From contig NZ_LIPG01000011.1 of the NCBI RefSeq assembly GCF_001905505.1, positions 18,002 through 82,001 of the forward strand: a stretch of 64,000 bases of DNA, in the 5' to 3' direction. Source of the DNA: Streptomyces sp. CB02058 (GTDB lineage Bacteria > Actinomycetota > Actinomycetes > Streptomycetales > Streptomycetaceae). This document shows, in pieces, positions 1-34,447 of this stretch (the first letter of the stretch is position 1; each line of letters starts with the position of its first letter). The position numbers and the translations under genes are program-made. The notes under the pieces were generated by a model. It saw nothing but the letters and a program-made list of their open reading frames with translations, made no database searches and had not been told where the DNA came from.

Positions 1-254
1 CCAATCCACCTGATCCGACGGACGATCCACATGCAACGTCTTCGGCAACACACCATGCCGCATCGCATGAACAACCTTGATGATCCCCGCCACACCCGCA
101 GCAGCCTGCGTATGACCCATGTTCGACTTCACCGAACCAAGCCACAACGGACGACCCTCAACCCGACCCTGCCCATACGTCGCCAACAACGCCTGCGCCT
201 CGATCGGATCACCCAAAGTCGTACCCGTACCATGCGCCTCCACCAGATCCACAT
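1..254. repeat. Near-identical KS segment, copy of 5961-6214
   Basis: Positions 1-254 match 5961-6214 in the same orientation. I see one mismatch, at 171 (a here, c in the other copy). The copies encode the same stretch of KS6 and KS5. The match may continue left of the window. It suggests recent duplication or gene conversion. Confidence 0.9.
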
Positions 255-1212
255 CATTGGTGGTCAGGCGGGCGTTCCGCAGTGCTTCCTGGATGACGCG
301 GCGTTGCGACGGTCCGTTCGGGGCCGTGAGTGCGCTGCTGGCGCCGTCCTGGTTGACTGCCGACCCGCGGACCACTGCGAGCACCGGGTGGCCGTTGCGC
401 CGCGCGTCGGAGAGCCGCTCCACCACCAGGACACCGACGCCCTCCCCCCAGCCTGTGCCATCGGCCGCCGCCGCGAACGACTTGCACCGACCATCCGCAG
501 CCAACCCACGCTGACGACTGAACTCCACGAACGTCTCCGGAGTCGCCATCACCGTCACGCCACCCACCAACGCCAGCGAGCTGTCCCCCGACCGCAGAGA
601 CTGCACCGCCGAATGCAACGCCACCAACGACGACGAACACGCCGTATCCATCGTCACCGCCGGACCCTCAAGACCCAACGTGTACGCCACCCGCCCGGAC
701 ACGATGGAGCCGGTTGCGCCGACGTCCGTGTAGTCGTGGTACATCACGCCCGCGAACACACCCGTTCGCGAGCCGGCCAGCGTCGACGGAACGATGCCCG
801 CCCGCTCGATGGCCTCCCACGACACCTCCAGCAGCAGCCGCTGCTGCGGATCCATGTCGTGGGCTTCCCGGGGGCTGATCCCGAAGAAGGCCGGGTCGAA
901 GCCGGCGGCCCCGTGGAGGAAGCCGCCGTCCTTCGTGTAGGTCTTCCCCGGCTTGCCCTGCTCGGGGTCGTACAGGTGATCGGTGTCCCAGCCGCGGTCC
1001 TTCGGGAATGCGGATACCGCGTCCCTGCCTTCGGCCGCCAATCGCCACAGGTCCTCGGGGGATTCCACACCGCCCGGATAGCGGCAGGCCATTCCCACGA
1101 TGGCGATCGGCTCGGTGTCGTGCTGTTCCTTGTCCGTGAGGCGCTTTCGGACGTCCCGTAGCTCAGCAGTCGTTCGCTTGAGATAGTCGAGAAGTTTCTC
1201 CTCGCTGCTCAC
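1..1212 (-). CDS. Modular type I PKS, N-terminal part (docking domain plus KS of module 6), runs off the left edge
   Basis: An open frame of 404 codons starts at GTG 1212 and reads off the window edge without a stop. Residues 1-35 ([18 protein letters not shown]...) look like a class 1b N-terminal docking coiled coil. From about residue 36 a ketosynthase begins ([15 protein letters not shown]), with the catalytic cysteine in DTACSSS near residue 190 and EAHGTGT further on. The KS is cut before its end, so AT and later domains lie to the left. It has its own promoter (1341-1390) and sits 435 bp from the previous PKS gene, which is unusual for consecutive PKS genes. The docking type matches the C-terminus of the protein ending at 1648, so this protein should carry module 6. 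Its first 254 bases repeat 5961-6214 almost exactly. Confidence 0.95.
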
Positions 1213-1340: not shown

Positions 1341-1390
1341 ACGTTACTGAGTGCGCCGAGGGGCGGCCAACCCCTAGCCGCCCCTAGGGC
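1341..1390 (-). promoter_or_regulatory. Predicted promoter P1 with paired CTAGGGG operator, drives the PKS gene starting at 1212
   Basis: On the plus strand CCCCTAG occurs at 1371-1377 and again at 1381-1387, exactly 10 bp apart. Read on the minus strand this is CTAGGGG-CGG-CTAGGGG, then 24 nt, then TAACGT (1346-1341), a possible -10. TTGGCC is a possible -35 at 18-bp spacing. The predicted transcript starts near 1334, leaving a leader of about 120 nt. The same layout occurs at 29406-29452 and 34391-34447. The repeats are directly visible; the promoter role is inferred. Confidence 0.65.
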
Positions 1391-1426
1391 ACGGGCTGCA
1401 ATCCCACCGAGTCGGGACATGGAATG

Positions 1427-1538
1427 GCGCACCACCGTGCACCGCCACGTCCGGGCCGGGGCTCGGTGGGGGGGTACCGAGTGGCCGGGGGACGTGTGCC
1501 GCCTGAGCTGGCAGGCGATTCGGTACACGGTGGTGCGC
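1427..1538. other. 112-nt nested inverted-repeat element, possible three-way-junction RNA or cruciform
   Basis: The outer arms are perfect 13-bp inverted repeats, GCGCACCACCGTG (1427-1439) and CACGGTGGTGCGC (1526-1538). Inside are two further hairpins. One has CACGTCC (1446-1452) pairing with GGACGTG (1490-1496) and an inner CTCGGT/ACCGAG pair (1462-1467, 1476-1481). The other is CGCCTG (1500-1505) pairing with CAGGCG (1512-1517). It lies between the terminator of the upstream PKS unit and promoter P1. I do not recognise the family. Confidence 0.6.
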
Positions 1539-1580
1539 AGTCGCCTTCGGTACGGGGGGAGGCACCGAAGGGGTTGAGGG

Positions 1581-1611
1581 GCGGCCCGGAGCAAGGGGTG
1601 CGCCGGGCCGC
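1581..1611 (-). terminator. GC-rich hairpin after the module 4-5 PKS gene
   Basis: GCGGCCCGG (1581-1589) pairs with CCGGGCCGC (1603-1611) over a 13-nt loop, 37 bp past the stop at 1648. There is no U-tract, as is usual in Streptomyces. It fits the separate promoter of the next PKS gene. Confidence 0.55.
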
Positions 1612-1647
1612 GGGTTATCCCGAAAGAAGCACGGCCGGAGGAATACC

Positions 1648-4600
1648 TCAGTTCCGGGCGTCGAGTTCGGAATCGAGAATGCCGAAGAGCTCGTCGGCGG
1701 TCACGGAGTCGAGGTCGACCCCGGCCTCCTCCGATGCGGTGCCGTCCGCGGGGTCGTCCGACCAGCCGGCGGCGATGCCGCGCAGCAGATCGGCGATTCG
1801 AGTGCGGTCACTCTCGTCCGCGGCAACTCCGGCCATCATCGATTCCAGTTTACGGATTTCGGCCTCCAGGAGGTCGGTGCCGTTCGCCGCTTCACCGCCG
1901 AAGAGCTCGTCGAGCATATGGCCGACCACGGCGGTGACCGACGGATAGTCGAATACGAACGTTGCCGGAAGGCGGCGACCGAGCAACGCACCGATTCCGT
2001 TGCGAAGCTCCAGCGCCATCAGCGAGTCGATACCGGCGTCCATGAACCCCCGGTTGACGTCAACGGCTTCGGAGCGTTCATGGCCCAGGACCTTCGCCAC
2101 CTGCGAACGTACGAGGGCGAGCAGCTCCTGACGCCGCGCCTCGGGATCAACCCCGGCAAGCCGACGGCGGAGCTCGTCGCCCGCATCCTCCTGCCGCGTC
2201 CCCGAGGCGGCCTCGGCGCGCCGGGGCGGAGCGCCCACCAGGCCGTGGAACACGTTGGAGAGCGTCTCCCGGCGGCGCCGTAGCGCCGGCAGGTCGAGGC
2301 GGGCCGCCACCAGCTGCGGAGCACCTGAGGACACAGCCGCGTCGAGCAGGGCGAGCCCGGACTCGGCGGGCAGCGCGGCGACCCCCAGGCGGGATGTGTC
2401 GTCGGCGGCGAGATGGCCGGTCATTCCGCTGTCCTCTTCCCACAGTCCCCAGGCGATGGACTGCGCGGCCATGCCGTGGGCGTGGCGGTGGGCGGCCAGG
2501 CCGTCCAGGAAGGCGTTGGCCGCCGCGTAGTTGGCCTGCCCGGGGTTGCCGAGAGCACCGGCGACGGAGGAGAACATGACGAATGCCGAGAGATCCAGGC
2601 CGGCGGTCAGCTCGTGCAGGTGCCAGGCCGCGTCGGCCTTGGGCGCGAACACTCTGGAGAGGCGTTCCGGCGTGAGACCGGTGACGACGCCGTCGTCCAG
2701 GAGACCGGCCGCGTGCACCACTCCGGTCAGCGGCCGCTCGGCGTCGAATTCCTTGAGCAGGGCGGCCAGAGCCTCCCTGTCGGAGACATCGCAGGCCGCA
2801 AGGGTCACCTGGGCACCCGCGGCTTCGAGCTCCGCGGCCAGGTCCGTCGCGCCGGAGGCGTCAGCGCCCCGGCGGCTGACGAGCGCCAGGTGCCGCACCT
2901 GATGTACGGCCACGAGGTGGCGTGCCACCACCGCTCCGAGGCCACCGGTCCCGCCGGTGACGAGCACCGTGCCGTCCCCGAACGGAGCCGGGCCGTGGGC
3001 GGCATCCTCGGCGCCACCGGAGCTCCCAGGCTCGGAGACCGTACGGACCAGTCGGGGCACGCGGATACGACCGCCCCGCAGAGCGACTTCGGACTCTCCC
3101 GAAGCGATGGCGAACTGCACCGCGCCCGGCAGCTCATCGACCGATGCGGAGTCACGGGAACCGTCCGCCGGCCCTTCCAGATCGGCCAGGACGATCCGGC
3201 CGGGGTTCTCCGCCTGGGCGGCGCGAACCAGCCCCCAGACTGCGGAGGCGGCCACATCCGTCACCTGCCCGCCCTCCACGGAGACCGCGCCTCGCGTGAC
3301 GATCACCAGCCGCGCGTCGGCGAGCCGCTCATCGGTCAGCCATCGCTGCAGCACAGCGAGCACGGTGGCCGTCACCTCGTGGGCCACAGCCGGAACAGCT
3401 CGCGTGCTGCCCCCCGGCCCGTCACCCACAGAGGTCGCCGGGCAGGTGTACACCAGGACCTCGGGGACGTCCGCATCCGTCGCGACGGCCTGGTCGTCGA
3501 CCACGTCGGCCCAGGACGTCAGGGACGGGGCAGCCGCAGGCACTGCGAATTCCGCCGTCCAGTCCAGGTGGTGCAGCGGATCGACTCCGCCCGCGTCCGT
3601 CCCACGCAGCTGGTCCGGGTCGACAGCCCTGGCGGTCAGCGCCTGGACCGACAGCACGGGGCCACCTTCGCCGTCCGCCACTTCGATGAGGGACACACTG
3701 CCCTGTTGCACCAACCGCACCCGCAGGTCGGCGGCTCCCACGGCGTGAAGGGCGACACCGCTCCAGGAGAAGGGAAGCATCGTCCGGCCCTTGTCCTCGG
3801 CGCCTTCCTCATCGTTGTCCCCGCTCGAGCCGGTCAGCAGCACTGCGTGGAGGGAGGCATCGAGAAGAGCGGGGTGGAACCCGAATCGACCGGCGTCCGA
3901 GCGGGCCTCCTCCGGAAGCGTCACCTCGGCGAAGGTCTCCTCGCCCCGCTGCCACACCGTCTTCAGCCCCTGGAACACGGGGCCGTACCCGTAACCCTGA
4001 TCTGCCAGCCGCTCGTACGTGCCGTCGACGGACACGGGCTCGGCGCCCTGCGGCGGCCACACGGTGAGGTCGAAATCGGGTGCCGGAGCCTGTGGCAACA
4101 GGATCCCTTCCGCGTGCTGCGTCCACGGAGCGTCCCGGTCGTTCTCCGCGCGGGAGTGCACACGCACCACCCGTGCGCCGTCGTCCGCGGCAGCACCGAC
4201 CGCGACCTGGACCTGCAATCCGTCGGATTCCGGCAGTACCAGCGGTGACTGAAGCGTCAGTTCCTCCAGCAGGCCGCACCCGACCTCGTCTCCCGCACGC
4301 AGCGCCAGCTCCACCAGGCCCGTCCCAGGCATCAGCACGCTGCCCAGGATGTTGTGGTCCGCAATCCAGGGCTGGGTGGTGACGGAAAGGCGGCCGGTGA
4401 AGACCACTCCCCCGTCGGGCAGGCTGACAGCCGCACCCAGGACAGGGTGGCCGGCCGGCACCAGCCCCAGCGATTCCGGGTCGCCATCGGCAACTGCGGG
4501 GAGCGACCAGTAGTGCTGGTGCTGGAAGGCGTACGTGGGCAGGTCGACGCGGCGGGCTCCGGTGGGCGCGTAGAACGCCGCCCAGTCGGGGCTGTGGCCG

Positions 4601-7600
4601 ACGGTGTGCAGCCGCGCGAGCGCCGTGACCAGAGCCTCGGGCTCACTCTGGTTGCGCCGCAGACCCGGCACGAACACCGCGTCAGCCGCAGAACTCTGCG
4701 CCATGGCGGTGAGGACGGCGTCCGGGCCGACCTCCAGGAACACCGAGACCCCAGCAGCCGACAGCGCACGAACGCCATCTCCGAAACGGACCGCCTCACG
4801 GACATGACGCACCCAGTACTCGGGGGTACGCAGATCATCCGAGGTCGCGAGCTCGCCGGTGACGTTGGAGACCACCGGAATGCGAGCCTCGCCGAACGTC
4901 ACGCTCTCCGCAACCGTACGGAACTCGGCCAGCATCGGCTCCATCAGCGGCGAATGGAACGCATGCGAAACCCGCAGACGACTCGTCTTACGCCCCTCCG
5001 CCTCGAACCGAGCCGCGAGCGCAAGGACCTCATCCTCGCCACCCGAGATCACCACCGCGTCCGGGCCATTCACCGCAGCAATGCTCACCGCGTCCGACGT
5101 GAGATACGGAAGAACCTCGTCTTCGGAAGCACGAACGGCGACCATCGCACCACCGGCGGGCAGGGCCTGCATCAACCGCGCACGCGCAGCAACCAGCCTC
5201 GCCGCATCCGCCAGCGACAACACACCCGACACATGCGCAGCCGTCAGCTCACCCACCGAATGCCCCGCCAGGAAGTCCGGCCGCACACCCCACGACTCCA
5301 GCACACGGAACAACGCCGTCTCGAACGCGAACAACGCCGGCTGAGTGAACTCCGTCCGCTCCAACACCGACGCATCCTCACCCCACACCACATCCCGCAA
5401 CGACCCCGACAGATGGGAATCCAGCTCCGCCACCACCGCGTCGAACGCCTCGGCGAACACCGGGAAGGCAGCGTGAAGTTCACGCCCCATCCCCAACCGC
5501 TGCGCACCCTGACCCGTGAAGAGAACGGCCAGAGCACCAGCAGAACGTGAAGTCCCCCGCACCACACCGGAGCCCTCACGGCCCTCCGCCAACACACCCA
5601 AAGCAGCCAACAGTTCATCCCGGTCACGGCCGACCACCACAGCACGCTGATCCAGCACCGCACGCGAGGTCGCCAGCGAGAAGCCCACATCCACCGGACG
5701 TATCTCAGACCCGGCCACCCGCTCCAGCAGACGCGCAGCCTGCGCCTTCAACGCATCCTCACCGGCGGCCGAGAGCACCCACGCATGCACCGGGAACTCT
5801 TCGGATCGTTCGCCCTGCACAGGCTCCTCGTCCGGAGCCTGCTCGATGATCACGTGCGCGTTCGTGCCGCTGATCCCGAACGACGACACCGCAGCCCGCC
5901 TCGGACCCACCGTCGCCGGCCACTCCCGAGCCTCCGTCAACAACTCCACCGCACCCGCAGACCAATCCACCTGATCCGACGGACGATCCACATGCAACGT
6001 CTTCGGCAACACACCATGCCGCATCGCATGAACAACCTTGATGATCCCCGCCACACCCGCAGCAGCCTGCGTATGACCCATGTTCGACTTCACCGAACCA
6101 AGCCACAACGGCCGACCCTCAACCCGACCCTGCCCATACGTCGCCAACAACGCCTGCGCCTCGATCGGATCACCCAAAGTCGTACCCGTACCATGCGCCT
6201 CCACCAGATCCACATCAGCACCAGTCAGACCCGCATTGGCAAGAGCCTGCCGAATGACGCGCACCTGCGACGGACCATTCGGAGCCGTCAGACCATTACT
6301 CGCACCATCCTGATTCAGCGCAGAACCCCGCACCACCGCCACCACCGCATGCCCAAGACGCCGCGCATCCGAAAGACGCTCCACCAGAAGCATCCCCGCA
6401 CCCTCACCCCACGCCGTCCCATCCGCACCCGCAGCAAACGACTTCGCACGACCATCCGCAGCCAAACCACGCTGACGACTGAACTCCACAAACGTCTCCG
6501 GAGTCGCCATCACCGCAACCCCACCCACCAACGCCAGATCACAATCACCCGACCGCAACGACTGCACCGCCGAATGCAACGCCACCAACGACGACGAACA
6601 CGCCGTATCCACCGTCACCGCCGATCCCTCAAGACCCAGCGTGTAGGCGATGCGGCCGGAGACCAGGCTGCCTTCGTTGGCGCCTGCCGAGTAGTCGTGG
6701 TACATCACACCCGCGTACACGTTCGTCCGGGAACCTGCCAGCGTCGACGGAACGATGCCCGCCCGCTCGATGGCCTCCCACGAGACCTCCAGCAGCAGCC
6801 GCTGCTGGGGATCCATCTCGTACGCCTCACGGGGGCTGATCCCGAAGAAGTCGGGGTCGAACCGGGCCGCGTCGTGCAGGAAACCGCCCATGCGCGTGTA
6901 CGACTTGCCCGGCGTGCCCGGCTCGGGATCGTAGAGCCGTCCGGTGTCCCAGCCACGGTCGGTCGGGAAGGACGAGACGGCGTCACGGCCCTCGGCCACC
7001 ACGTCCCACAGTCCTTCGGGCGATTCCGCGCCGCCGGGGTAGCGGCAGGCCATGCCCACGATCACGATCGGATCGTCGTCGGCGATCGCCCCGCGCACGA
7101 CCACGTCGCCCGCGGCCTGCGAGGCCCCGCTCTCCGACATCTCGGTATCGAGGTACGAGGCGACGGCCCGTGCACTCGGATAGTCGAACACCAGGGTCGC
7201 AGGCAGCCGTAGGCCCGCTGAAGCATTGAGGCGGTTGCGGAGCTCCACGGACGTCAGGGAGTCGAAGCCGAGCTCCTTGAAAGCACGGTCCGCCTCGATG
7301 GCGTTGGCCGTGGCATGCCCAAGGACGCCCGCGACCTGTTCCCGCACCACGTCCAGGAGCAGCCGCTCCCGCTCCTCCGCCCCGAGGCCGGACAGGCGGG
7401 CCCTCAGCGCACCCGACGAAGCACCCGAACGGGCCACCTTGCGCACCGCAGGCACCATGTGGCGGAGGAGGTGAGGGACGGTGGCCGGCTGGGACCGCAA
7501 CGCCACCAGATCCAAAGGCAACGGCACCACCACCGCCCCACCCACACCCGCATCCGACCTGCTCATCGCAGCGTCGAACAGCTCCAGACCCTCAACCGCA

Positions 7601-10600
7601 CCCAACGCCGGGAAACCCTGCCGCGCCAACCGCTCCACATCACCGACCGACAACCGGTCAGCCATACCACCCACACCAGCCCACGGCCCCCACACCAACG
7701 ACCGACCCGGCAAACCACCACACACCCGCACCACAGCCAACGCATCCAAAAACGCATTCGCCGCCGCATAATTCGCCTGCCCCGGACCACCCAACAACCC
7801 AGCAACCGACGAAAACATCACAAACGCCGACAGATCCATCCCCGCCGTCAACTCATGCAAATGCCACGCCGCATCAGCCTTCGGCGCGAACACCCCGTCC
7901 AACCGCTCCGGAGACATCGCACCGATCACACCGTCATCCAGCACACCCGCAACATGCACCACACCCGACAGCGCAACACCATCCAAGACCGCTGCCAGCG
8001 CCCCACGGTCCGCGACATCACAGCCCACCACCGACACCGACGCACCAGCCGCCTCCAGATCCGCGACCAGCACCTCAGCCCCCGGAGCACCCAACCCCCG
8101 ACGACTCACCAGCAACAGATCCCGAACCCCATGCACCCCCACCAGATGCCGGGCCACCAACGCACCCAGACCACCCGTACCACCCGTCACCAACACCGTG
8201 CCATCACCGAACGAACCACCACCGCCGCCAGCCTCAGCCGGCCCGGCTACAGCACGCACCAGCCGCGGAACCCACAACCGGCCCTCACGCACCGCAACCT
8301 CGGGCTCACCACACCCCACCACCAGCTCCACCGCACCAGCAGAACCATCCACATCACCCAGAACAATCCGCCCCGGATGCTCCGCCTGCGCCGCCCGCAC
8401 CAGCCCCCACACACCAGCACCAGCCAGATCAGACACACCACCACCATCAACCGCCACCGCACCACGCGTAACGATCACCAACCGGCCATCAGCGAACCGC
8501 TCATCCGCCAACCACCCCTGCACCACACCCAGAACACCACCCACAACACCCCGCAACACACCCGGCACATCCCCAGGCACATCCGGAACCGCGAACACCA
8601 CCGCATCCGCACCCACCACACCACCAGCCGCAACGTCCTCCCACCGCACGAACGAACCCACACCCGCAGGAACAGCAGCCGAACCCCCAGCCACCACACC
8701 CCACTCAACCGCCAGCAAAGAACCACCAGCAGCCGCACGGCCACCCGCACTCAACTGCTCGGCAGACACCTCACGCGCCACCAACGAACCCACCGACAGC
8801 ACAGGAACACCCGCACCATCAGCCACCTCCAACGCCAGCAGGCCCTTCTCACCGCGCACGATCCGCACCCGCACGACCGACGCACCCGCCGCGAACAGCG
8901 ACACACCCGCCCACGAGAACGGCAGACGCGGCGCACTGTCGTCAGCAACCTCGGTAAGCATCTCCGCGTGCAGGGCAGCATCGAGAAGAGCAGGGTGCAG
9001 ACCGAACCGCCCTGCCTCCTCGCGAGCCTCATCGGGAAGAGCTACCTCGGCGAAGATCTCCTCACCCCGCGTCCAGACAGCCCTCAGCCCCTGGAACACC
9101 GGGCCGTACCCATACCCCTGCTCCGCCAGCCGCTCGTACGCACCCACGACCGGAACCGACACCGCGCCGGCCGGCGGCCACACCGCCAGATCGAAGTCAG
9201 CAGCGGGCGCCTCCGGGCGCAGCATCCCCTCCGCGTGCAGCCGCCAGGGCGCCTCGGGGTCGGCCTCCGGCCGCGAGTGGACTCCCACCGGCCGCCCGCC
9301 GTCCTCGGTCGGAGCATCGATGACGACCTGAACCTGTACGGCGTCGCTGTCAGGCAGCATCAGAGGTGACTGAAGGGTCAGTTCCTCCAAGAGGCCGCAC
9401 CCGACCTCCTCACCCGCACGCACCGCCAGCTCCACCAGACCCGTCCCCGGCACCAGCACACTGCCCAGCACACTGTGATCAGCAAGCCAAGGATGAGAGT
9501 TGAGGGAGAGACGGCCGGTCAGGACCATCCGCTCGTCGGGCGTGCTCACGGCCGCCCGGAGCAGCGGGTGGTCGAGGGGAGTCTGCCCCGCACCGGCGGC
9601 ATCGCCCTTGCCGGCCGCGTTGGTGAAGCTCTCCTGCCAGTAGCGCTGTCGCTGGAAGGCGTATGTGGGCAGATCGACACGCTTGGCGCCGGTGTTCCGA
9701 AGACATGCGCTCCAGTCGACCGGCACGCCGCGCAGGTGTGCCGCGCCGAGCCCTGCCAGTAGTTCGCGTTGCTCAGAACGATTGCGCCGCTGTGTCGGGA
9801 TGAGGGCCACGACGTCCTGTTGCTCATCGCCTGCGGAGACACAGTCCTGCGCCAGCGCTGTGAGAACGGTGTCGGGTCCGATTTCGATGAACGTCGTGAC
9901 GTTCTTGGACTCCAGGCAGCGAATGCCGTCCGCGAAGCGCACGGCCTCCCGCACGTGCCGCACCCAGTATTCGGGCGAACGGAGCTCGTCGGCGGTGGCC
10001 AGCTCCCCGGTGACGTTCGACACCACCGGGAGATTCGGGCTGTTGAACGTGAGAGTGGCGGCCAGCTGGCCGAACACCTTCAGGATGGGCTCCATCAGCG
10101 GTGAATGGAACGCGTGCGAGACACGCAGACGACTCGTCTTACGACCCTCGTCCTCGAACCGAGCCACAACCTCCAGCACATCCTGCTCGGCACCGGAGAT
10201 CACCACCGCATCCGGACCATTCACCGCAGCGATACTCACCGCGCCCGACGTCAGATACGGAAGAACCTCGTCCTCGGACGCACGGACGGCGACCATCGCA
10301 CCACCCTCGGGGAGGGCCTGCATCAACCGCGCACGCGCAGCAACCAGCCTCGCCGCATCCGCCAGCGACAACACACCCGACACATGCGCAGCCGTCAGCT
10401 CACCCACCGAATGCCCCGCCAGATAGTCCGGCCGCACACCCCACGACTCCAGCACACGGAACAACGCCGTCTCGAACGCGAACAACGCCGGCTGAGTGAA
10501 CTCCGTCCGCTCCAACACCGACGCATCCTCACCCCACACCACATCCCGCAACGACCCCGACAGATGGGAATCCAGCTCCGCCACCACCGCGTCGAACGCC

Positions 10601-12333
10601 TCGGCGAACACCGGGAAGGCAGCGTGAAGTTCACGCCCCATCCCCAACCGCTGCGCACCCTGACCCGTGAACAGGAACGCGGTGCGGCCCCGGCGGCGCG
10701 GAGTGGCGGAGGTTTCGCTCCGGAGGAAGGAGTCGAGCGCCGCGTCGAGTTCCGCGCGGTCCTCGCCGATGAGGACCGCTCGGTGCTCGAGCGAGGCCCT
10801 GCCCGTGGCCAGGGAGTGGGCGATGTCGAGAGCTCTGGCCTCGGGGCGGGTCGCGAGGTGACCGCGCAGCCGGTCGGCCTGTGCCGTGAGGGCTTGCGGA
10901 GTCTTCCCTGAAAGCACCCAGGGAAGGACGGAAGGGGCGTGGCGCGGGTCCTCGTCGGCACGGGTGGGGGTGTCCTCGTCGGCGGACGGGGCCTGTTCGA
11001 CGATGACGTGGGCGTTCGTACCGCTGATCCCGAAGGAGGAGACGGCGGCTCGTCGTGGACGGCCGGTCTCCGGCCACGCACGGGCTTCGGTGAGCAGTTC
11101 CACTGCTCCCGCGGACCAGTCCACCTGAGGGGTGGGCTCGTCCAGATGGACGATGCCCGGCAGGAACCCTTCCTGCATGGCAAGAACCATCTTGATCACG
11201 CCGCCGACCCCGGCTGCGGCCTGGGTGTGTCCGAGGTTGGACTTCAGCGCGCCGAGGAGCAGCGGCTCTCCCCCGGGGGCGCGCTCGCGGCCGTACGTGG
11301 CCATGAGGGCCTGTGCCTCGATGGGGTCCCCGAGGGTGGTGCCGGTGCCGTGGGTCTCCACGGTGTCGATGTCGGCGGCGGTCAGACCGGCGTCGGCCAG
11401 GGCCTGACGGATGACCCGCTGCTGGGAGGGGCCGTTGGGGGTGGTGAGCCCGCTGGAGGCGCCGTCCTGGTTGAGGGCGGAGCCCCGGATCACCGCGAGT
11501 ACCGGGTGTCCGTTGGCGCGGGCGTCGGAGAGGCGTTCCAGCAGGATGAGCGCGGCGCCTTCGGAGCACCCGGTGCCGTCCGCGCCCGCGGAGAAGGACT
11601 TGCAGCGGCCGTCGGCCGCCAGGCCCCGCTGTTCGCTGAAGTACACGAACATGTCGGGTTCGGTCATCACGGTCACACCGCCGGCGAGAGCCAGCGTGCA
11701 CTCGCCCTTGCGGAGGGCCTGCGCGGCCCAGTGCAGCGCGACCAGCGAGGAGGAGCACGCGGTGTCCACGGTGACCGCCGGGCCCTCCAGCCCCAGGGTG
11801 TAGGCGACCCGGCCCGTGACCAGGCTGCCGTCGCTGCTGCCGGGGCCGTAGTCGTGGTACATCACGCCCGCATAGACACCGGTCGCGGAGCCCTTCGCGG
11901 AGGTCGGGTCGATGCCCGCGCTCTCGAAGGCCTCCCAGGCGGTCTCCAGGAGCATCCGCTGCTGCGGGTCCATGCCCAGCGCCTCGCGGGGGCTGATCCC
12001 GAAGAACTCCGGGTCGAAGTCCACGGCGTCGTAGAGGAAGCCGCCCTCACGGGCGATGGACTTGCCTACGGCTCCGGGCTCCGGGTCGTACAGGGCGTCG
12101 AGATTCCAGCCCCTGTCGGTGGGGAACCCGGCGACGGCGTCCTTGCCGTCGCGGACCAGGCGCCACAGCTCCTCCGGGGTGCGCACGCCACCGGGGTAGC
12201 GGCACGCCATGCCGACGATGGCGACGGGTTCGTCGGCACGGTCGGTGAGCTGCTGGTTCTGCTGTCGCAGCCGTTCGTTCTCCAGCATGGACGAGCGCAG
12301 TGCTTCGACGATCTGCTCAGCGGATGCTTCCAC
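1648..12333 (-). CDS. Modular type I PKS, modules 4 and 5 (each KS-AT-DH-KR-ACP), 3561 aa
   Basis: Start is GTG 12333, 39 bp after the stop of the previous PKS gene, so one transcript is likely. Approximate residues: class 1a N-docking 1-33; module 4 KS 34-448, AT 552-832, DH 922-1145, KR 1377-1552, ACP near 1690; module 5 KS 1753-2165, AT 2271-2548, DH 2632-2862, KR 3120-3298, ACP near 3436; class 1b C-docking 3538-3561 ([12 protein letters not shown]). Both ATs have GHSVGE and HAFHS, which indicate malonyl-CoA. Both DHs keep the HxxxGxxxxP and DxxxH motifs. Both KRs have LDD and the YAAAN tyrosine, predicting B-type reduction. No ER is seen. Each module should therefore add a two-carbon unit and leave a double bond. 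The module 4 KR region uses GGT, GTT and TTG codons far more than flanking DNA, suggesting a recombinant origin. Confidence 0.97.
4960..5521. repeat. Homogenised AT block, copy in module 5
   Basis: This block is nearly identical to those at 10110-10672, 15850-16421 and 21190-21767, covering most of the malonyl-AT from the HAFHS region to the GQGAQR motif. The AT of module 1 (about 26.28-27.10 kb) is clearly diverged and not part of the family. The flanking segment 4526-4825 also matches 15429-15736. Confidence 0.85.
5961..6214. repeat. KS5 segment matching 1-254
   Basis: This is the second copy of the 254-bp KS repeat described at the left edge, in the same orientation. Confidence 0.9.
10110..10672. 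repeat. Homogenised AT block, copy in module 4
   Basis: Member of the four-copy AT block family (see 4960-5521). It reads [12 protein letters not shown] where the others have [12 protein letters not shown]. Confidence 0.85.
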
Positions 12334-12372
12334 GTGATTGTCCCTGGTTTCTCGCTGGGTGACCGGATGCTG

Positions 12373-24300: not shown

Positions 24301-27300
24301 CAGGGCGTCCCTGTCGCCCGTGTCGCACGCGGCGACCGTGACCACAGCACCGGACTCCTCCAGCTCTACGGCCAGCTCGGCCGCACCCGGAGCATCAGGA
24401 CCACGACGACTCGTCAGCAGCAGACTGCGCACACCGTGCTCGGCCACCAGATGACGCGCCACCAGCGCACCGAGACCACCCGTACCACCCGTCACCAGGA
24501 CCGTACCCGCACCAAAAGCACCACCCTCGGCACTCCCAGCACCATCCGCCTGCGCCACCGACACCAGACGCGGCACCAGAACGGAACCCCCACGCAACGC
24601 CAACTCCGGCTCACCCGAGGCAAGCGCCCCGGACAGCACCCCGGCAGAAACACCAGCGGCATCACCGTCGACCAGCACGAACCGGCCCGGATTCTCCGCC
24701 TCGGCCGCCCGCACCAGACCCCACAGGGGTGCGGTGTCGAGGGCGGGCGGGGTGTCGTCGTCCGTGGTGGCGACGGCGCCCTCGGTGAGCAGCACCAGCC
24801 GCGAGCCGGCGAACCGTTCGTCGGTGAGGAAGCTCTTTACGGTGCCGAGAAGCTGGGCAAGGGCCGTACGGGTGGTCGCCAGCGGGTCGGTGCCTGTGCT
24901 CGTGGCCTCCGTACGGTGGGTGACGAGGATGACGTCAGGCACGGGCCCGTCGGCGTCGGCCGCTGCGCCGAGCTCGGTGAGTGTGGGGTGTACGGGTACG
25001 CCGAGGGTGTCGGCGAGACCCAGCGGGTCCGCTCCCGCGATCGCCCAGTTCTCCAGGTCGGCTGGTGAACCAGCGCTCGCCTCGACCCAGTTGACGCGCT
25101 TGAGCGTGTCGGTGCGCGTGGCGGCGGCGGCAAGGCGCGTGGTGTCGACGGCACGTACGAGGTAGCCGTCGACGAGGGCCACGGGTGCGCCCGTGGTGTC
25201 GGCAAGGCGCAGCAGGACGGAGTCGGGGCCGGTGGCCGCGATCCGGACCCGGACGGCGGACGCACCGGTGGCGTACAGCGTCACCCCGTGCCAGGCGAAG
25301 GGCAGACGGGTGACGTCGTCGGCGGCTCCGTCCTGGGTGAAGTCGGTGGCGTGCAGCGCCGCGTCGAGCAGTGCGGGGTGGAGCGCGAAGGCTCCGGCGT
25401 CGCCCTGGACGCCCTCGGGGAGGGCGACTTCGGCGTAGACCTCGCCGTTGTGCCGCCAGGCGGCTCGGAGCCCCTGGAAGGCCGGGCCGTATCCGTAGCC
25501 CTTCGTGGCCATGTCCTCGTAGAGGCCGGTGATGTCGACGGGCTCGGCGCCCTTGGGGGGCCATTCGGCGAGGCCGAAGCCGGTGCGGTCGGCGGCGGGG
25601 GCACCGAGTGGGGCGAGCAGTCCGTCGGCGTGCTGGGACCACGGCTCGTCCTCGGTGGCGTCCTCGGGTCTCGAGTAGAACGCGATGGCGCGGCGTCCGC
25701 TGCCGTCGGGGGCGGCGACCTGGATCTGCAGAGCGATGCCGGTGCCGTCCGCGGGGACGGTGAGGGGGGTCGCGAGGGTCAGTTCCTCGATGGCGTCGCA
25801 GCCGACCTGGTCACCGGCGCGGACGGCCAGTTCCACGAAGGCCGTGCCGGGCAGCAGGACGGTGCCCGCGATGGCGTGGTCGGCGAGCCAGGGGTGGGAG
25901 CGCAGCGAGACGCGGCCGGTGAGGATGATGCCGTCCTCGCCCGCGCGGCTGATCACGGCGCCGAGCAGCGGGTGCCGGGCGGCCACCTGGCCGAGGCCCG
26001 TGGGGTCGCCGGAGTCGGTGATCCCGCGGGTGAGCCAGTAGCGGCGGCGCTGGAAGGCGTACGTGGGCAGTTCGACACGGGGGGCGCCGTCCGGGGCGCA
26101 GGCGGCGCCCCACTCCACGTCGAAGCCGCGGACGTGGACGGCGCCGAGGGCGGTCAGGAGTTCCCGCTGTTCGTCGTGGCCGCGGCGCAGCACGCAGTGG
26201 AAGGCGGGCGCGTCGTCCGCGGACGTGGTGTCACCGGCGTCGGCCAGTGCTCCCTGCGCCATGGCGGTGAGTACGGCGTCGGGGCCCAGCTCCAGGAAGG
26301 TGGTGACTCCGGCGGCGGCGAGGGTGTCGATTCCGTCGGCGAAGCGGACGGCCTGGCGGACGTGGCCCACCCAGTACTCGGGGTCGCAGAGTTCGGCGCT
26401 GGTGGCGATCTCACCCGTGACGTTGGAGACGACGGGTATCAGGGGCGCGCGGTACTCCAGCAGCCGGGCGATCCCCCTGAACTCCTCCAGCATCGGCTCC
26501 ATGAGGGACGAGTGGAAGGCGTGGGAGACGCGAAGCCGCTTGGTCTTGGCGCCGCCCGCGGCGAGGCGTTCGGCCAGGGCGAGGGTGGCCTGCTCGGCGC
26601 CGGAGACGACGACGGAGTCGGGGCCGTTGACGGCGGCGAGGGAGACGGTGCCGTCGCCGTCCGCGAGGGCTGCGGCGACCTCTGCCTCGGTGGCCTGGAC
26701 CGCGACCATGGCACCGCCGGCGGGCAGTTCCTGCATCAGGCGGGCGCGCGCGGCGACGAGGGTCGCCGCGTCCTCCAGGGAGAGCACTCCGGCGGCGTGG
26801 GCCGCGGACAGCTCGCCCAGGGAGTGGCCGGCCAGGTAGTCGGGCCGTACGCCCCACGACTCCAGCAGCCGGAACAGTGCGGTCTCCAGGGCGAAGAGAC
26901 CGGTCTGGGCGTACTCGGTCCGGTTCAGCAGCGCGGCGTCCTCGGTGCCCTCGTCGGCGAGGAGGACGTCCCAGAGCGAGTGCTCCAGCTGGATGTCGAG
27001 ATGACCGATGGCCTCGTCGAGGGCGTCCGCGAACACCGGGTACCGCTCGTACAGTTCACGTCCCATGGCCGCGCGCTGGCTGCCCTGGCCGGTGAAGAGG
27101 AACGCGAGCCGTCCGGTGGCGGGTTCACCGCGCACCACGTCGGGGTGGTCGGTGTCCTCGGCGAGGGCGCGCAGCGCGCTGTCGAGCCCGGTGCGGTCGC
27201 TGACGGTGACGACGGCCCGGAGGCTGAGTGCGGCGCGCGTGGTCGCCAGCGCGTGGCCGAGGTGCGGCAGCGGAGTGCCGGGATGCGTGTCGAGGTGCGT

Positions 27301-29190: not shown

Positions 29191-29405
29191 CAGCGCACTC
29201 CACGGTCATCACTGGTTCGCGCGATTCACGGCGCGCGAATATGCCTACACCCGGCCTTGTTACGGTGTGCCGGCCATTACGGAAATCGTGTCTCGGATTC
29301 GTTCTTCGTCATGGCAGTGGATCTGTTCTTGCTTCTGAACTCAAAGGTGTTGCTGTCACTGCCGCGAGCGACGGGCCGGTACGGATATTCCGACCGGATA
29401 TCGCC

Positions 29406-29452
29406 AACGTAGGGGGGCCGGGCTCCCGGCTGACACCCCTAGTGACCCCGGT
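29406..29452 (-). promoter_or_regulatory. Predicted promoter P2 with CTAGGGG operator, drives the main PKS operon
   Basis: On the plus strand CCCCTAG lies at 29436-29442 and a weaker copy, CCCCGGT, at 29446-29452, again with a 10-bp period. On the minus strand CTAGGGG is followed by 24 nt and then TACGTT (29411-29406) as the likely -10. TGTCAG is a possible -35 at 18-bp spacing. The predicted start is near 29399, giving a leader of about 209 nt before ATG 29190. The geometry is the same as P1 and P3. Confidence 0.65.
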
Positions 29453-29574
29453 TGCCGGTGGTGGCGCCCGGTAAAGGGCCTCTTCCGGTGGGGCGGCCCA
29501 TTGCCCGGCGTGACGGTTCCACGGATATCGCGACCGCCGTCGCGCACACGGCCGCGATTTCCGTCGCGGAGTCC

Positions 29575-29605
29575 TTCCGGACGTTCGGAACGTTGCCCTC
29601 CGGAA
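29575..29605 (-). terminator. Possible terminator after the mutase E gene
   Basis: TTCCGG (29575-29580) pairs with CCGGAA (29600-29605), enclosing a second small palindrome ACGTTC-G-GAACGT (29581-29593). It sits just past the stop at 29609. The structure is modest and unconfirmed. Confidence 0.35.
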
Positions 29606-29608
29606 CAG

Positions 29609-30952
29609 TCAGCCGCCGTCGAGCAGAACCGGCTGGATCGGAGGTTCGTCAAAGGTGCTGCGTACGTAGGAAAGGTCGCTGAGAAGCCCCGTCGCGGTGA
29701 CACGTCCCGTACTCGGACCGGTCACCAGATGCCCCAGCGGAAGAGAGCCGATGGCAGACCAGCGCAGCCGGCCTTCGCCGTCCACATAGCTGCGCGTGCG
29801 ACCGCAGTTGTCGGGGTGCACGCAGTAGGGGATGTCGAGATAGCCGTGCTGAAATGCGCGCATCAGGGCGGTGCCGATGTCCGTATGGAGGGACAGGACC
29901 GCTTCCACCAGGGCCCGGGCCTCCTGATACGTCTGGGAGTCGGTCTCCGCCGGAGCACCCGCGAGGGCGGCGGGCCGGGGGGTGCGTGCGGCCACGTCCG
30001 CGGCGTACTCCAGTGCCTGGACGTTCTCGACGATCGTGGGGATGCGCCGGGCTTCCGCGACGGTCTTCACGATGAGCCGTTCGCACCCCGTGGTGACGGC
30101 GAGCTCGGCGGCCTGGCCGAGCAGCCGCAGCGCGCCGCCGTCGGTCTGCGGGTAGACCCCCATGTACGCGTACACCACCACGTGCCAGTCGTCGGTGCGC
30201 AGATGCTCCCGGCACAGACGGCGCAGTGCGGCGACTGCTTCCTGGTCCTGGCCGAGATGGGTCTGCTGGGCATAGCTGAGGGAGACGCTGCGCACTCCGT
30301 GCTGGACGAAGAACATCGCCTCCAGGAGGCTGAGGGCGACCAGTTGGCTGGGTGGGCAGAGCTGTCCCAGCATGCATCCGCCGAAGGTCTCGATGTGCGG
30401 TTCGGCGCCGCTGCCGCTGAGTTCGGCGAACAGTTCGCTGCACACGGACCACTCCCGGACCGCCTCGGCGAGCGGGGTGCGCCCGTAGGGAAGGCAGTAG
30501 GAGACGGGGCCACCCTCGGTGGCGGTCAGGCCGAGGCCGGCGATGGCGGCGAAGATGTCCCGGGGGACGGCGGAACCGTGCCGGACCTGTACGGGGAAGT
30601 CGGGGCCGCGGATGCCGTCCAGGACCCGTTCGGTCGTCTCGACGGGGTGGCTGACCACCGGGTATCCGTTGAGGTCGAACCCGGCGCGCAGCGCCTCCTC
30701 GACGGCTTGGAGATGGCCGACGCGGGTGTGGCTGTCCAGGGTGATGGTGCCCACGGTGTGGGCGTCGGCGCGGCGGGTGGCCAGCAGTCCGGCCCGCATG
30801 CGGGCCGGGTCGCCGAACCCCATGCGGGGCTGCACCACGAGCCGGCCGCCCGCCCCGTGCGCCCGCACGAAGGCGCCGAAGCCGGCGGACTGCTGACCGG
30901 GCTCCCCCGTCGGCGCGGGGCGGGAGTGCGTCGGCCGCCGGGCTGGCTTCAC
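29609..30952 (-). CDS. glmE: Glutamate (methylaspartate) mutase, large E-type subunit
   Basis: With its partner this B12 enzyme should rearrange L-glutamate to (2S,3S)-3-methylaspartate. Start GTG 30952 overlaps the stop of the upstream gene by 4 bp (GTGA), giving 447 aa, slightly shorter than typical GlmE. An upstream extension in the same frame is arginine/proline-rich and not credible. Residues expected from GlmE structures are visible: RHGS, the EGG-VSY-CLPY stretch (Glu171, Tyr177 and Tyr181 equivalents) and VKTVAE (Lys326 and Glu330 equivalents). It is the last gene of the starter operon. Its presence points to 3-methylaspartate, rather than aspartate, as the starter precursor. Residue numbering is from memory of the clostridial enzyme. 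Confidence 0.9.
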   Translation of the reverse strand: MKPARRPTHSRPAPTGEPGQQSAGFGAFVRAHGAGGRLVVQPRMGFGDPARMRAGLLATRRADAHTVGTITLDSHTRVGHLQAVEEALRAGFDLNGYPVVSHPVETTERVLDGIRGPDFPVQVRHGSAVPRDIFAAIAGLGLTATEGGPVSYCLPYGRTPLAEAVREWSVCSELFAELSGSGAEPHIETFGGCMLGQLCPPSQLVALSLLEAMFFVQHGVRSVSLSYAQQTHLGQDQEAVAALRRLCREHLRTDDWHVVVYAYMGVYPQTDGGALRLLGQAAELAVTTGCERLIVKTVAEARRIPTIVENVQALEYAADVAARTPRPAALAGAPAETDSQTYQEARALVEAVLSLHTDIGTALMRAFQHGYLDIPYCVHPDNCGRTRSYVDGEGRLRWSAIGSLPLGHLVTGPSTGRVTATGLLSDLSYVRSTFDEPPIQPVLLDGG

Positions 30953-31461
30953 GCGGTGATCCGGGGCCCGGGCAGGGCCCGGTTCCCGGCGGTCCGGGCG
31001 GAACTCTCCAGGACCTCGATGAAGGACCGGAAGGCGATCACGGGGTCGGCGTCGTCGGGGAACACGGCGTCGAAGCCGGCCTCGGTGAGCTGTTCGGAGA
31101 GCAGGTCGGCCTCGTCGGTGATGCCGAGCTTGCCGCCGATCACGGCGGGGGTCGCGGCGAGTTCGGGCTGCTCGCGCAGCCGTCGGATCATCCGCATCCC
31201 CTCCTGATGGCCGTGGCCGTTGACCGAGCTGACGACCAGCAGGTCGGGGGCGGTCTCCAGGCACTCCCGCACCAGCAGGTCGTCGGGGACGCACGGGCCC
31301 AGGTTGATCACCCGGTAGCCGAGCTCCTCGATGAGCAACTGGAGGTAGACCAGGTTCCAGGTGTGGGAGTCGGAGGCGACCGTGGTGACCACCACGGTGC
31401 CCTTGGAGCCCTGCGCGGGCAGCGCACGCTCGGCGGGGGCCACCGCCGTCCCGTCAGACAT
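30949..31461 (-). CDS. Glutamate mutase small subunit, cobalamin-binding (S type)
   Basis: This is a 170-aa B12-binding domain. ATG 31461 overlaps the end of the decarboxylase gene by 8 bp and has GAGGAG upstream. The fold is recognisable: a beta strand, then DSHTWN, LLIEELGYRVINLG, VVSSVNGHG and VIGGKLG. The canonical base-off motif is DxHxxG. The Asp and the cobalt-ligating His are kept, but the final Gly is Asn here. It is coupled to the E subunit downstream (GTGA overlap), so the two are made together. Membership in the mutase pair is well supported; the effect of the Gly-to-Asn change is unknown. Confidence 0.9.
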   Translation of the reverse strand: MSDGTAVAPAERALPAQGSKGTVVVTTVASDSHTWNLVYLQLLIEELGYRVINLGPCVPDDLLVRECLETAPDLLVVSSVNGHGHQEGMRMIRRLREQPELAATPAVIGGKLGITDEADLLSEQLTEAGFDAVFPDDADPVIAFRSFIEVLESSARTAGNRALPGPRITA

Positions 31462-32707
31462 CCGCCGGCTCCTCTTCGCGGCTGCGGCGGACATGCTCGA
31501 TGCGCGAGACGGAGACCACTCCGTCCCGGTCGAGGACGACTTCGGTGGGCGCCGGGCGTCCCAGGAACATCAGCAGGCTCGCTGTCGGCCCGTAGGCACC
31601 CGCGTTCGGCACGGTGACGATGTCGCCCTCGGTGAGCAGCGGCACCTCGACCTGCCGGCCGAGAAGATCGCCGGGGGTGCACAGGGGTCCTGCCAGGGTG
31701 GCGCGTTCGGTCTCGGCGCCGACGGCGACCTGGACCGTGACCGGCAGCAGCCGGCCGAGCCCCGACATCCCGCCGAAGCTGTTGATGCCGGTGTCCAGGA
31801 TGACGAACTTCTGGCCGCGGCTGACCTTCACGTTGCTGACGCCCGCGACCAGCGTGCCGCTGTCACCGACCAGGTAACGGCCCGACTCGACGGCGACCTT
31901 GGGACTGCCCTCGCGCCAGGCGGGGAACGCCTCGTCCAGGGCCTCGGCGAGACCGGCGGCCAGGCCCGGGTAGCGGGCGCGTTCGCCGGCCGTGGCGTAC
32001 GGGACGGAGAAGCCGCCGCCGATGTCCAGCAGCCGCAGGGGGATGCCGAGTTCCTCCTGGATGCGGGCCGCGGCGGTGATGGTGTGCCGGAACTCGCCGA
32101 GCAGCGCCTCCTCGTCGGCGGCGTTGCTCTGGGAGAACAGGTGCAGGCCGACGATGTCGGTTCCCGGCACGTCCCGCAGCTGCTCGGCGAGCTCGGGGAC
32201 GGTCTCGCTGTCGATGCCGAACTGGGTGGGCTTGCCGGTCATCCGGATGCCCGTGCCGGCCGACCCCGTGGCGCTGTTGATGCGCAGCAGGCAGTCGGCG
32301 GTCACGCCGAGTTCGCAGGCGGCCCCGCCGATGTGCCGCAGGTCGCCCAGCGACTCGGCGGAGAACAGGCGTACGCCGCTCTCCAGGGCGGTACGCAGTT
32401 CCTCGTAGGTCTTTCCGGGGCCGGTGTAGAGGACGTCTCTACCCGCGTAGCCCGCTTCGAGAGCCGCCGCGAGTTCGCCGGTGGAGCTGATCTCGGCGCG
32501 GCAGGAGGGGCCGTCGCCCTCGCGCAGGGTACGGACGAGATCGACGTGCGGGTTGGCCTTGAAGGCGTAGTAGACCTCGAAGCCCTCCGGCAGGGACTGG
32601 AAGAGATCGTGGCGGGCGGCCCGTACCTTCTCCAGGTCGTAGACGTACAGGGGGGTGCCGTAACGTTTGGCCAGATCCTCCGGATCCGGACCGGTGGGGG
32701 CGTTCAC
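31454..32707 (-). CDS. PLP-dependent decarboxylase (fold III, DAPDC/LysA-like), probable 3-methylaspartyl-ACP decarboxylase
   Basis: A 417-aa protein of the alanine-racemase-like decarboxylase family. The PLP lysine is in YAFKANPHVD near residue 48. A glycine-rich phosphate site (GGGFSVPYA) lies near 230, ESGRYLVGDSG near 275 and LCTPGD, the subunit-crossing cysteine motif, near 343. Start GTG 32707 overlaps the ligase stop by 4 bp. In vicenistatin biosynthesis a homologous enzyme (VinO) decarboxylates 3-methylaspartate bound to a carrier protein to 3-aminoisobutyryl-ACP. Sitting between a ligase and a glutamate mutase supports the same role here. A free amino-acid decarboxylase is the main alternative. 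Confidence 0.85.
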   Translation of the reverse strand: MNAPTGPDPEDLAKRYGTPLYVYDLEKVRAARHDLFQSLPEGFEVYYAFKANPHVDLVRTLREGDGPSCRAEISSTGELAAALEAGYAGRDVLYTGPGKTYEELRTALESGVRLFSAESLGDLRHIGGAACELGVTADCLLRINSATGSAGTGIRMTGKPTQFGIDSETVPELAEQLRDVPGTDIVGLHLFSQSNAADEEALLGEFRHTITAAARIQEELGIPLRLLDIGGGFSVPYATAGERARYPGLAAGLAEALDEAFPAWREGSPKVAVESGRYLVGDSGTLVAGVSNVKVSRGQKFVILDTGINSFGGMSGLGRLLPVTVQVAVGAETERATLAGPLCTPGDLLGRQVEVPLLTEGDIVTVPNAGAYGPTASLLMFLGRPAPTEVVLDRDGVVSVSRIEHVRRSREEEPADV

Positions 32708-34365
32708 TTGTCTCTCCCGTCGAGCAGCCTGGCCAGTTCCTGTCGGGCGTTCTTGCCGTGCTGGGTCAGCGGGAACTCGGTCAGCGCCCGGCAGATCGCC
32801 GGTATCTTGGCCGGCTCCAGACGGACCGTGAGTTCCTTGATGATGACCCTGGGGTCGAGTTCGGTCTCCACGAAGAGCGCGAGATCGTGCCGGTCGCCGG
32901 GCGGGACCGCCGCGGCGGCCCGGACACCGGGGATGTCCATGGCGGCGGCTTCAATCTCCAGCGTGCTCATCCGGAAGCCCTTGCGCTTGAACATGTCGTC
33001 GCGCCGGCCGCGGAAGTAGAGGTAGCCGTCCTCGTCGAGGTTGCCGTAGTCGCCGGTGTGCAGCCGCAGCTGCCCGGACTCGGCGTCGCGCCGGAAGGTC
33101 CGTGCGCTCAGTTCGGGTGCGCCCCAGTAGCCGGGCATGACGTGACCGCCCTCGGCCACGATCTCGCCGGTCTCGCCGGCCGGCACCGGACGGCCCTGTT
33201 CGTCCAGGATCAGGACCCGGGTTCCGGGCAGGGGCAGCCCGACCGCGTCGGGGCGCTCCTGGTCCTCCTCGGGGGGCATCACGGTGATCCGTTTGGCCTC
33301 GGTCTGGCCGTACTGGCGGACCACCCGTGTGCCGGGAAAGAGGTCCCGCAGCTCGGAGATCACCGAGGGCGGGAGCGCCGCGCCGGTGTTGGTGAACATC
33401 CGGACCAGGGGCAACTGACCTGCTGCGGCCCGGCGGCCCAGCTTGACGATCATGCTGGCGAGCGACGGCACGGTGGGGACCACGGTGGCCCCGACCTCGT
33501 GCATCCGTCGCAGCAGGAGCAGGTCCTCCGCGCGGTCCGCGAGCACGATCTCGCTGCCGACGGCGCAGCTCATCAGCACCTTGTAGAGGCCGTAGTCCCA
33601 GGACATCGGGAAGCGACAGAACACGACGTCGTCCGCGCGGTAGCCGAGGGAGCTCACCAGTGCCCGGGTGGCGAAGGTGACCTGGGCGTGCGGACAGATG
33701 ACCGCCTTCGGTGCCGCGGTGCTCCCCGAGGTGTAGATGAGGGCTGCCGGGTCCTCGGACCGCAGCGGGACCGGGGCGGCGCGGACACCGCTCTCGCGCA
33801 GCGCGGCGATCTCCGGCCAGATGTCCTCGAACGTCGTGCGGGACACCGGACCGGCGGGGGCGTCGCCCTCGGCGGGGAGGGCGAGCTCGCCCGCGCGGGC
33901 CTCGCCGTCGTGGTCCGTGACGAACAGCGCGGGACGGCAGTTCGCCACTACGGACCGCAGGTGGAAGGGCTTCATCGCGGGGTTGAGCGGCACGAAGATG
34001 ACTCCGCGGCGGGAGGCCCCGTAGAACATCGCCGCTAGTTCACGGCCCGTGGGCAGCTGGACGACGAGCCGGTCCCCGGCACCGAGTCCGCGCCGCTCCA
34101 GCCAGACGGCCACGGCGTGGCTCGCCTCGTCCAGTTCCGCGTAGCTCCACCTCTCGTCCGCGTCCCGGACAGCGGGTGCGTCGGGGGTGGTGGCTACGGC
34201 TTTGTCGAGCAGTTCATGGACGAACTCACCACCGGGGCCACCGGCCGCGTCCGCGGCTCCGCCCACTGCTGGTGTCTCGTCCGCACCTTCGGTATCCGTG
34301 GCAGTGCCCGCCGGCCGGCTGCCGCCCACGTGCGCATGGCTGTCCATTTCCAGACCCCGTCTCAT
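32704..34365 (-). CDS. Adenylate-forming ligase, probable beta-amino-acid (3-methylaspartate) ACP ligase, VinN-like
   Basis: First gene of the starter operon. Motifs are ATP loop YTSGSTAAPKAV near residue 208, YGQTEA near 351, TGDYGNLDEDGYLYFRGRRD, and the C-terminal lysine in QHGKNARQ near 542. The ATP loop has Ala where TSGSTG normally has Gly. The substrate pocket includes SWDYG; in VinN-type enzymes an Asp in this area binds the beta-amino group, but other acyl-CoA ligases also have a similar SFDYG stretch. I chose ATG 34365 (553 aa, CGGGG upstream); ATG 34347 is a close alternative. The promoter P3 -10 ends 26 bp upstream. No partner ACP lies beside it, so it must act on one encoded elsewhere. 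Confidence 0.85.
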   Translation of the reverse strand: MRRGLEMDSHAHVGGSRPAGTATDTEGADETPAVGGAADAAGGPGGEFVHELLDKAVATTPDAPAVRDADERWSYAELDEASHAVAVWLERRGLGAGDRLVVQLPTGRELAAMFYGASRRGVIFVPLNPAMKPFHLRSVVANCRPALFVTDHDGEARAGELALPAEGDAPAGPVSRTTFEDIWPEIAALRESGVRAAPVPLRSEDPAALIYTSGSTAAPKAVICPHAQVTFATRALVSSLGYRADDVVFCRFPMSWDYGLYKVLMSCAVGSEIVLADRAEDLLLLRRMHEVGATVVPTVPSLASMIVKLGRRAAAGQLPLVRMFTNTGAALPPSVISELRDLFPGTRVVRQYGQTEAKRITVMPPEEDQERPDAVGLPLPGTRVLILDEQGRPVPAGETGEIVAEGGHVMPGYWGAPELSARTFRRDAESGQLRLHTGDYGNLDEDGYLYFRGRRDDMFKRKGFRMSTLEIEAAAMDIPGVRAAAAVPPGDRHDLALFVETELDPRVIIKELTVRLEPAKIPAICRALTEFPLTQHGKNARQELARLLDGRDK

Positions 34366-34390
34366 AGCCCCGAAAACTGGCGACGGGCAA

Positions 34391-34447
34391 ACCGTAGAGA
34401 TATTCGAACCGCGCCCCACACCCCTAGCCGCCCTTAATCACCCCTGG
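34391..34447 (-). promoter_or_regulatory. Predicted promoter P3 with triple CTAGGGG-like operator, drives the starter operon
   Basis: On the plus strand CCCCTAG (34421), CCCTTAA (34431) and CCCCTGG (34441) are spaced exactly 10 bp apart. On the minus strand the proximal CTAGGGG is followed by 24 nt and TACGGT (34396-34391). TGTGGG is a possible -35 at 18-bp spacing. The predicted start is near 34384, giving a leader of about 19 nt to ATG 34365. It is the clearest of the three matching promoters. Confidence 0.7.

Follow-up and report, generated by a model that had tools for sequence, protein, structure and literature searches.

Direct-repeat boxes at a set distance from the -10 hexamer in a macrolactam cluster of Streptomyces sp. 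CB02058: candidate operators of a LAL regulator

In a stretch of 64,000 nucleotides from Streptomyces sp. CB02058 (the window, G000:C3:18002-82001, taken from the 91.6-kb contig C3) three transcription units of a macrolactam cluster are preceded by CTAGGGG-like heptamers, which stand head to tail and of which the proximal one is followed, after 24 nt, by a -10 hexamer. This three-site pattern is not due to chance. We consider the sites, with a probability of roughly 0.85, to be operator-promoter units of a pathway-specific activator of the large ATP-binding LuxR (LAL) type, the gene of which lies in the cluster's other half (C9:976877-979702). The boxes, their spacing and conservation, the gene context, the co-occurrence with the LAL gene and the conserved recognition helix of the protein were all established directly.

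Box spacing in the genome and in related loci

The promoters had been noticed in a sequence-only reading of the window. The boxes, gaps and -10 hexamers that it named are all present on the minus strand, base for base, the start codons behind them are correct (Table 1), and the gap between the proximal CTAGGGG and the hexamer is 24 nt at all three; the shared promoter design, with head-to-tail boxes one helix turn apart, was upheld. CTAGGGG by itself occurs in the window about as often as chance predicts (4 observed, 3.95 expected), thus the evidence lies in the spacing and in the promoter position. When the sequence that follows the three boxes was shuffled, none of 20,000 shuffles gave a common TANNNT offset within 0 to 60 nt. 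The genome scan for the double box with no more than one mismatch returned three sites in the whole 8.3 Mb, all of them in this cluster; with two mismatches allowed there were 18, 13 outside the cluster and 5 inside it (one overlapping another on the opposite strand). A position weight matrix (PWM) built without our own sites scored the three promoters at 34.9, 27.0 and 21.8, as compared with a best score of 16.4 in 399 kb of other DNA of the same genome. Equal spacing at many unrelated genes was not encountered in a partial test, in which 37 control stretches (22 from the own genome and 15 around double boxes lacking the spacing; 699 kb) contained no PWM site of at least 18.

Homologues of the ligase gene of the third unit were found in 62 of 297 genomes of the family, and five of the 30 short ligase loci returned, our own included, showed TANNNT 23 or 24 nt behind a CTAGGGG. 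Among ten 40-kb regions seven carried a site at 23/24 or 33/34 nt (none in G134, G244 and G145). The double box alone, used as query, matched 23 of 392 genomes of the same genus; in the 28 double-box rows from other genomes, some of which overlap, TANNNT stood at 23 or 24 nt in ten, and at other offsets between 10 and 49 nt at two sites only (30 and 42). Ketosynthase (KS) domains were encoded in nine of the ten regions with the spacing, the tenth being just 3.4 kb long, versus three of the 12 regions without it, these being the regions fetched as controls from 15 distinct double-box sites.

A further set of 80 named loci was chosen by ligase similarity (the best 80 of 566) and not by motif. 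Its 66 CTAGGGG boxes had TANNNT at 23 nt six times, at 24 nt 13 times, at 33 nt 16 times and at 34 nt eight times, 43 matches as against four at the remaining 53 offsets of 0 to 56 (one each at 4, 25, 35 and 44). The spacing is present in 23 of the 41 similarity families and in 20 of the 80 loci, with Amycolatopsis, Nonomuraea, Spongiactinospora, Saccharothrix and a Hamadaea metagenome-assembled genome among the carriers. Macrolactam-type loci of actinobacteria other than Streptomyces in which the operator was seen are L192, L185, L213, L187, L188, L190 and L196.

When 102 sequences were pooled (2.70 Mb, 144 boxes; own and double-box-chosen regions included) the matches peaked at 23 (15), 24 (26), 33 (26) and 34 nt (17), with three at 35 nt and at most two at every other offset of 0 to 60. 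Five control heptamers had 0 or 1 match at each of the four peak offsets; one of them, GATCGGG, had 12 matches at one single non-peak offset. The exact 24 nt of the sequence-only reading is right for the window, but across relatives the gap is 23 or 24 nt and a 33/34 variant exists. An artefact of chance or of the composition of G-rich upstream DNA, with which the ordinary number of CTAGGGG in the window would agree, is next to impossible: it is refuted by the spacing peaks of both the pooled and the unselected set and by the genome-wide double-box scan, and the shuffles and the control heptamers speak against it as well.

For a consensus we aligned 74 promoters with the hexamer at 23/24 or 33/34 nt, which fall into 43 families (four of them own). 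It reads cTAGGGGnng-cTAGGGGT, then TAgCGT 23-24 nt behind the heptamer, the gap being 24 nt in 25 families and 23 nt in 18. The free positions of the hexamer converge on TAgCGT (G in 27, C in 29 and G in 31 of the 43 families), although the selection demanded TANNNT only. A second AGGGG box lies 10 bp (16 families) or 11 bp (5 families) upstream in 21 of the 33 families in which the proximal box is exact, a rate that is inflated because some families were found via the double box. The 33/34 class repeats this design one helical turn away, its proximal box being degenerate. A start codon follows in 42 of the 43 families at a median distance of 52 nt. The next genes match, in 38 cases, queries for ligase, decarboxylase, VinJ, VinK, acyl carrier protein (ACP), P450, polyketide synthase (PKS) or KASIII, some of which (P450, KASIII and the second ligase) had been drawn from these very loci and named by Pfam; the remaining ones are one transporter and three genes without assignment.

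The same data bear on two other readers. Head-to-tail heptamers are bound by Streptomyces antibiotic regulatory proteins (SARPs), and SARP genes lie near some of the plasmid LAL genes described below. SARP repeats, however, have an 11-bp period and end about 8 nt ahead of the -10; here the period is mostly 10 bp and none of the 144 boxes has TANNNT at offsets 6-22, which makes a SARP operator very improbable. A PAS-LuxR regulator of the PimM type, which the sequence-only reading had favoured for its CTnGGG-like half-site, is less probable still. The PimM consensus is the palindrome CTVGGGAWWTCCCBAG; it is absent from the three sites, the boxes of which are direct and not inverted repeats, and elsewhere in the window it has three matches at three mismatches, 3.39 being expected.

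The candidate regulator and its proposed action

The regulator is, as had been stated, not encoded within the window. The likely one is the LAL at the end of contig C9, a protein of 941 aa with AAA_16 and GerE domains (L008:7877-10702). No NCBIfam family matched it at E <= 1e-10, and a sequence search among solved structures found no LAL, its 13 matches (response regulators, GerE, VpsT) covering only the C-terminal helix-turn-helix (HTH) domain, which spans residues of about 860-941. A LAL of this family is present in all 12 regions of at least 80 kb from other genomes, which had been lengthened in search of it (in G129 and G518 towards GerE matches), and also in G134, G244, G255 and G395 (20-40 kb); none was found in four stretches of 20-35 kb (G145, G314, G393 and G424). 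The recognition helix, STVEQHLT, is identical in all 17 LALs and its flanking residues are nearly so, the overall identity of the other sixteen to our own LAL being 29-42%. Three paralogous LALs from the same regions differ at this helix.

The family also occurs on 45 plasmid records. In 14 hand-chosen plasmid LAL loci (596 kb) the STVEQ helix was found in all, and seven had PWM sites of at least 18, 10 sites altogether as compared with none in the 699 kb of controls. Counted from TAGGGG, TANNNT stood at 23 nt five times, at 24 nt three times, at 33 nt once and at 34 nt three times, the other 57 offsets together having 17; the controls had none at the four peak offsets. Most of the annotated plasmid loci contain PKS genes, L281 and L287 also nonribosomal peptide synthetase (NRPS) or other carrier-protein systems; L283 and L285 are unannotated. 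The plasmid search for LALs with another helix yielded one record.

Three additional box sites lie in the C9 half of the cluster. The one before an MFS gene is a double box with TACCGT at 34 nt, that before VinK is TTAGGGG-N3-CTAGGGG with AACACT at 24 nt, and that before the ACP gene consists of AGGGG and GTAGCGG with TAGCGT at 24 nt (PWM 23.3). At the VinK promoter (L008:13987, plus strand) an ATG stands 6 nt behind AACACT, which would make a leaderless mRNA.

The best reading of these data is a class-II-type operator array for a MalT-like LAL activator. Several subunits of the LAL, a LuxR-family protein with a MalT-like STAND ATPase, would assemble on ATP, perhaps also on a ligand, and their GerE-type HTH domains would line up in tandem on CTAGGGG(T) boxes with a 10-bp period, all on the same side of the helix. 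The proximal box, ending 23-24 bp before the TANNNT -10, would be centred near -40 above a poor -35; this class II position, at about -43 to -37, follows if the -10 is taken at about -12 to -7. The protein at the proximal box would contact region 4 of sigma and recruit RNA polymerase, and the LuxR-type activator beside sigma that the sequence-only reading had suggested is in keeping with this. Binding, the oligomer, activation and the transcription starts are what we infer from the observations. We also lean, with distinctly less confidence, towards the wider view that one grammar (NTAGGGG boxes 10 bp apart, with 23-24 or 33-34 nt to TAgCGT) may be the common operator code of LALs with the STVEQHLT helix, over macrolactam and other modular PKS clusters in several actinobacterial families.

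It must be noted that a number of observations weigh against these interpretations. At promoter 2 the distal box is weak, with three mismatches. The -10 of the MFS site lies at 34 rather than 24 nt, AACACT replaces TANNNT at the VinK site, and the PWM scan of the C9 half found no site upstream of the LAL gene itself. Among the named ligase loci 60 of 80 lack such a site (flanks up to 6 kb), G244 has the LAL yet no PWM site of at least 18 in 40 kb, and 7 of the 14 plasmid LAL loci have no such site within 20 kb. The site in L285 is weak with a poor -10 match, one promoter is common to L279 and L280, and 15 of the 37 control stretches surround double boxes lacking the spacing. Finally, the 7-nt repeats that were predicted for FkbN are inverted (PMC6022917), and SCO6993, another LAL, was footprinted on palindromes (PMC9628970), which speaks against a single LAL code.

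Another possible reader of the boxes, in place of the LAL, is a NarL-type response regulator from a two-component pair (L008:589-2410). Its gene lies in the half-cluster of the LAL, the protein combines a receiver with a GerE domain, and it has matches in several related regions; in five of the 12 regions with operator and LAL (G518, G160, G104, G151 and G434) there is, however, no match at E <= 1e-8, and we regard this reading as improbable.

Gene content of the split cluster

The cluster genes of the window belong to one half of a split vicenistatin-type macrolactam cluster. Homologues of glutamate mutase, the decarboxylase, VinN, VinK, VinM and VinJ are present, split over two contigs, and homologues are also grouped together in related genomes. 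The Vin-type names are those which we take to apply, partly after PMC5785472. A modular PKS gene stands first in units 1 and 2. Unit 3 combines an amino-acid ligase, a pyridoxal phosphate (PLP) decarboxylase and both glutamate mutase parts, i.e. the starter-unit pathway of vicenistatin-type macrolactams.

The remaining half, located at the C9 end (L008; C9:969001-988942), encodes VinK-, VinM- and VinJ-like proteins, an ACP, a lone KS, thioesterases and MFS transporters, and also the two-component pair and the LAL. The stand-alone KS gene (L008:12775-13938) sits between a thioesterase gene and the VinK-like gene. Terminal sequence in inverted orientation is common to the C9 end and the C6 start, and to the C6 end and the C3 start (C6 is L014, C3:1 is L003); this suggests the contig order C9-C6-C3 with collapsed PKS repeats, the cluster probably having been split by the assembly. 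Besides NRPS domains, pieces of C4 and C5 (L012, L013 and L015) encode a flavin halogenase and a P450 as well as a DNA polymerase III beta subunit; the last might be a self-resistance target, and the whole a cluster of its own.

Table 1. Promoter elements and genes in the window (positions of the window)
Feature	Position	Strand	Remark
-10 hexamer TAACGT, promoter 1	1341..1346	-	24 nt past proximal box
Proximal box CTAGGGG, promoter 1	1371..1377	-	
Distal box CTAGGGG, promoter 1	1381..1387	-	10-bp period
-10 hexamer TACGTT, promoter 2	29406..29411	-	24 nt past proximal box
Proximal box CTAGGGG, promoter 2	29436..29442	-	
Weak distal box ACCGGGG, promoter 2	29446..29452	-	3 mismatches
-10 hexamer TACGGT, promoter 3	34391..34396	-	24 nt past proximal box
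Proximal box CTAGGGG, promoter 3	34421..34427	-	
Second box TTAAGGG, promoter 3	34431..34437	-	
Third box CCAGGGG, promoter 3	34441..34447	-	
Start of modular PKS gene	1..1212	-	GTG start 1212; continues leftward of window within contig C3
Second large open reading frame (ORF), 3561 aa, presumed PKS	1648..12333	-	39 bp behind 5605-aa PKS, presumed same unit; from ORF list
Modular PKS, 5605 aa	12373..29190	-	First gene of transcription unit 2; ATG start 29190
MutE-like glutamate mutase large subunit	29609..30952	-	From domains
B12-binding protein, glutamate mutase small subunit	30949..31461	-	From domains
VinO-like PLP decarboxylase	31454..32707	-	From domains
VinN-like amino-acid ligase (AMP-binding)	32704..34365	-	First gene of starter-unit operon; ATG start 34365, more internal start possible

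Comparison with known systems

Large antibiotic clusters are commonly switched by LAL regulators, the target sites of which are poorly defined. A sharp and conserved grammar can serve to predict regulons, to link missing cluster halves, and to switch on or rewire silent clusters. If the common code is true, LAL regulons would be readable from sequence and LALs could cross-activate promoters of other clusters. Our literature searches turned up no description of this operator, most papers containing the string lying outside their coverage.

The vicenistatin and sceliphrolactam clusters also carry the genes for the 3-amino-2-methylpropionate starter. The sce cluster encodes SceP, a LuxR regulator of 926 aa (PMC5785472); the available text of this paper describes no operator and does not contain the word promoter. 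Raised expression of a LuxR-family gene of the cluster increased the production of weddellamycin, the regulator WdlA resembling AveR and SlnR (PMC11051340), and the auroramycin macrolactam cluster was switched on in the same manner (PMC6943886, PMC10949845). MilO of the mildiomycin cluster is a LuxR-family activator acting on three direct repeats, but these differ from ours: each is an 11-bp TGTCN3CGGT, the spacers measure 2 nt, and the array lies 142 bp ahead of the start site (PMC11784345). For SCO6993 a consensus could not be predicted (PMC9628970).

The candidate shares with SlnR/SalJ, NemR, AveR and FkbN the build of a PKS-cluster LAL, an N-terminal ATPase and a C-terminal LuxR HTH. The NemR site is reportedly TGGGGTGKATAGGGGGTA, with two GGGG blocks 10 bp apart, the SlnR site is said to consist of ACCCCT repeats, and a LAL site from a patent is reportedly CTAGGGGGTTGC. 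These sites agree with the box; if they are confirmed, the box itself was already known, and what is new would be its fixed distance to the -10, the one-turn variant and the breadth. SalJ binds the promoters of pks and other operons and activates them (PMC8601195).

Unlike the FkbN repeats, those found here are direct, keep a fixed distance to the -10 and have a one-turn variant over many clusters. MalT of Escherichia coli is a large STAND ATPase with a LuxR HTH, which recognizes G-rich direct-repeat boxes, the proximal one near -38. The system proposed here resembles MalT in the ATPase plus HTH build, the direct repeats and the promoter-near box, and differs from it in the sequence and arrangement of the boxes and in the genes controlled, those of MalT being the maltose regulon.

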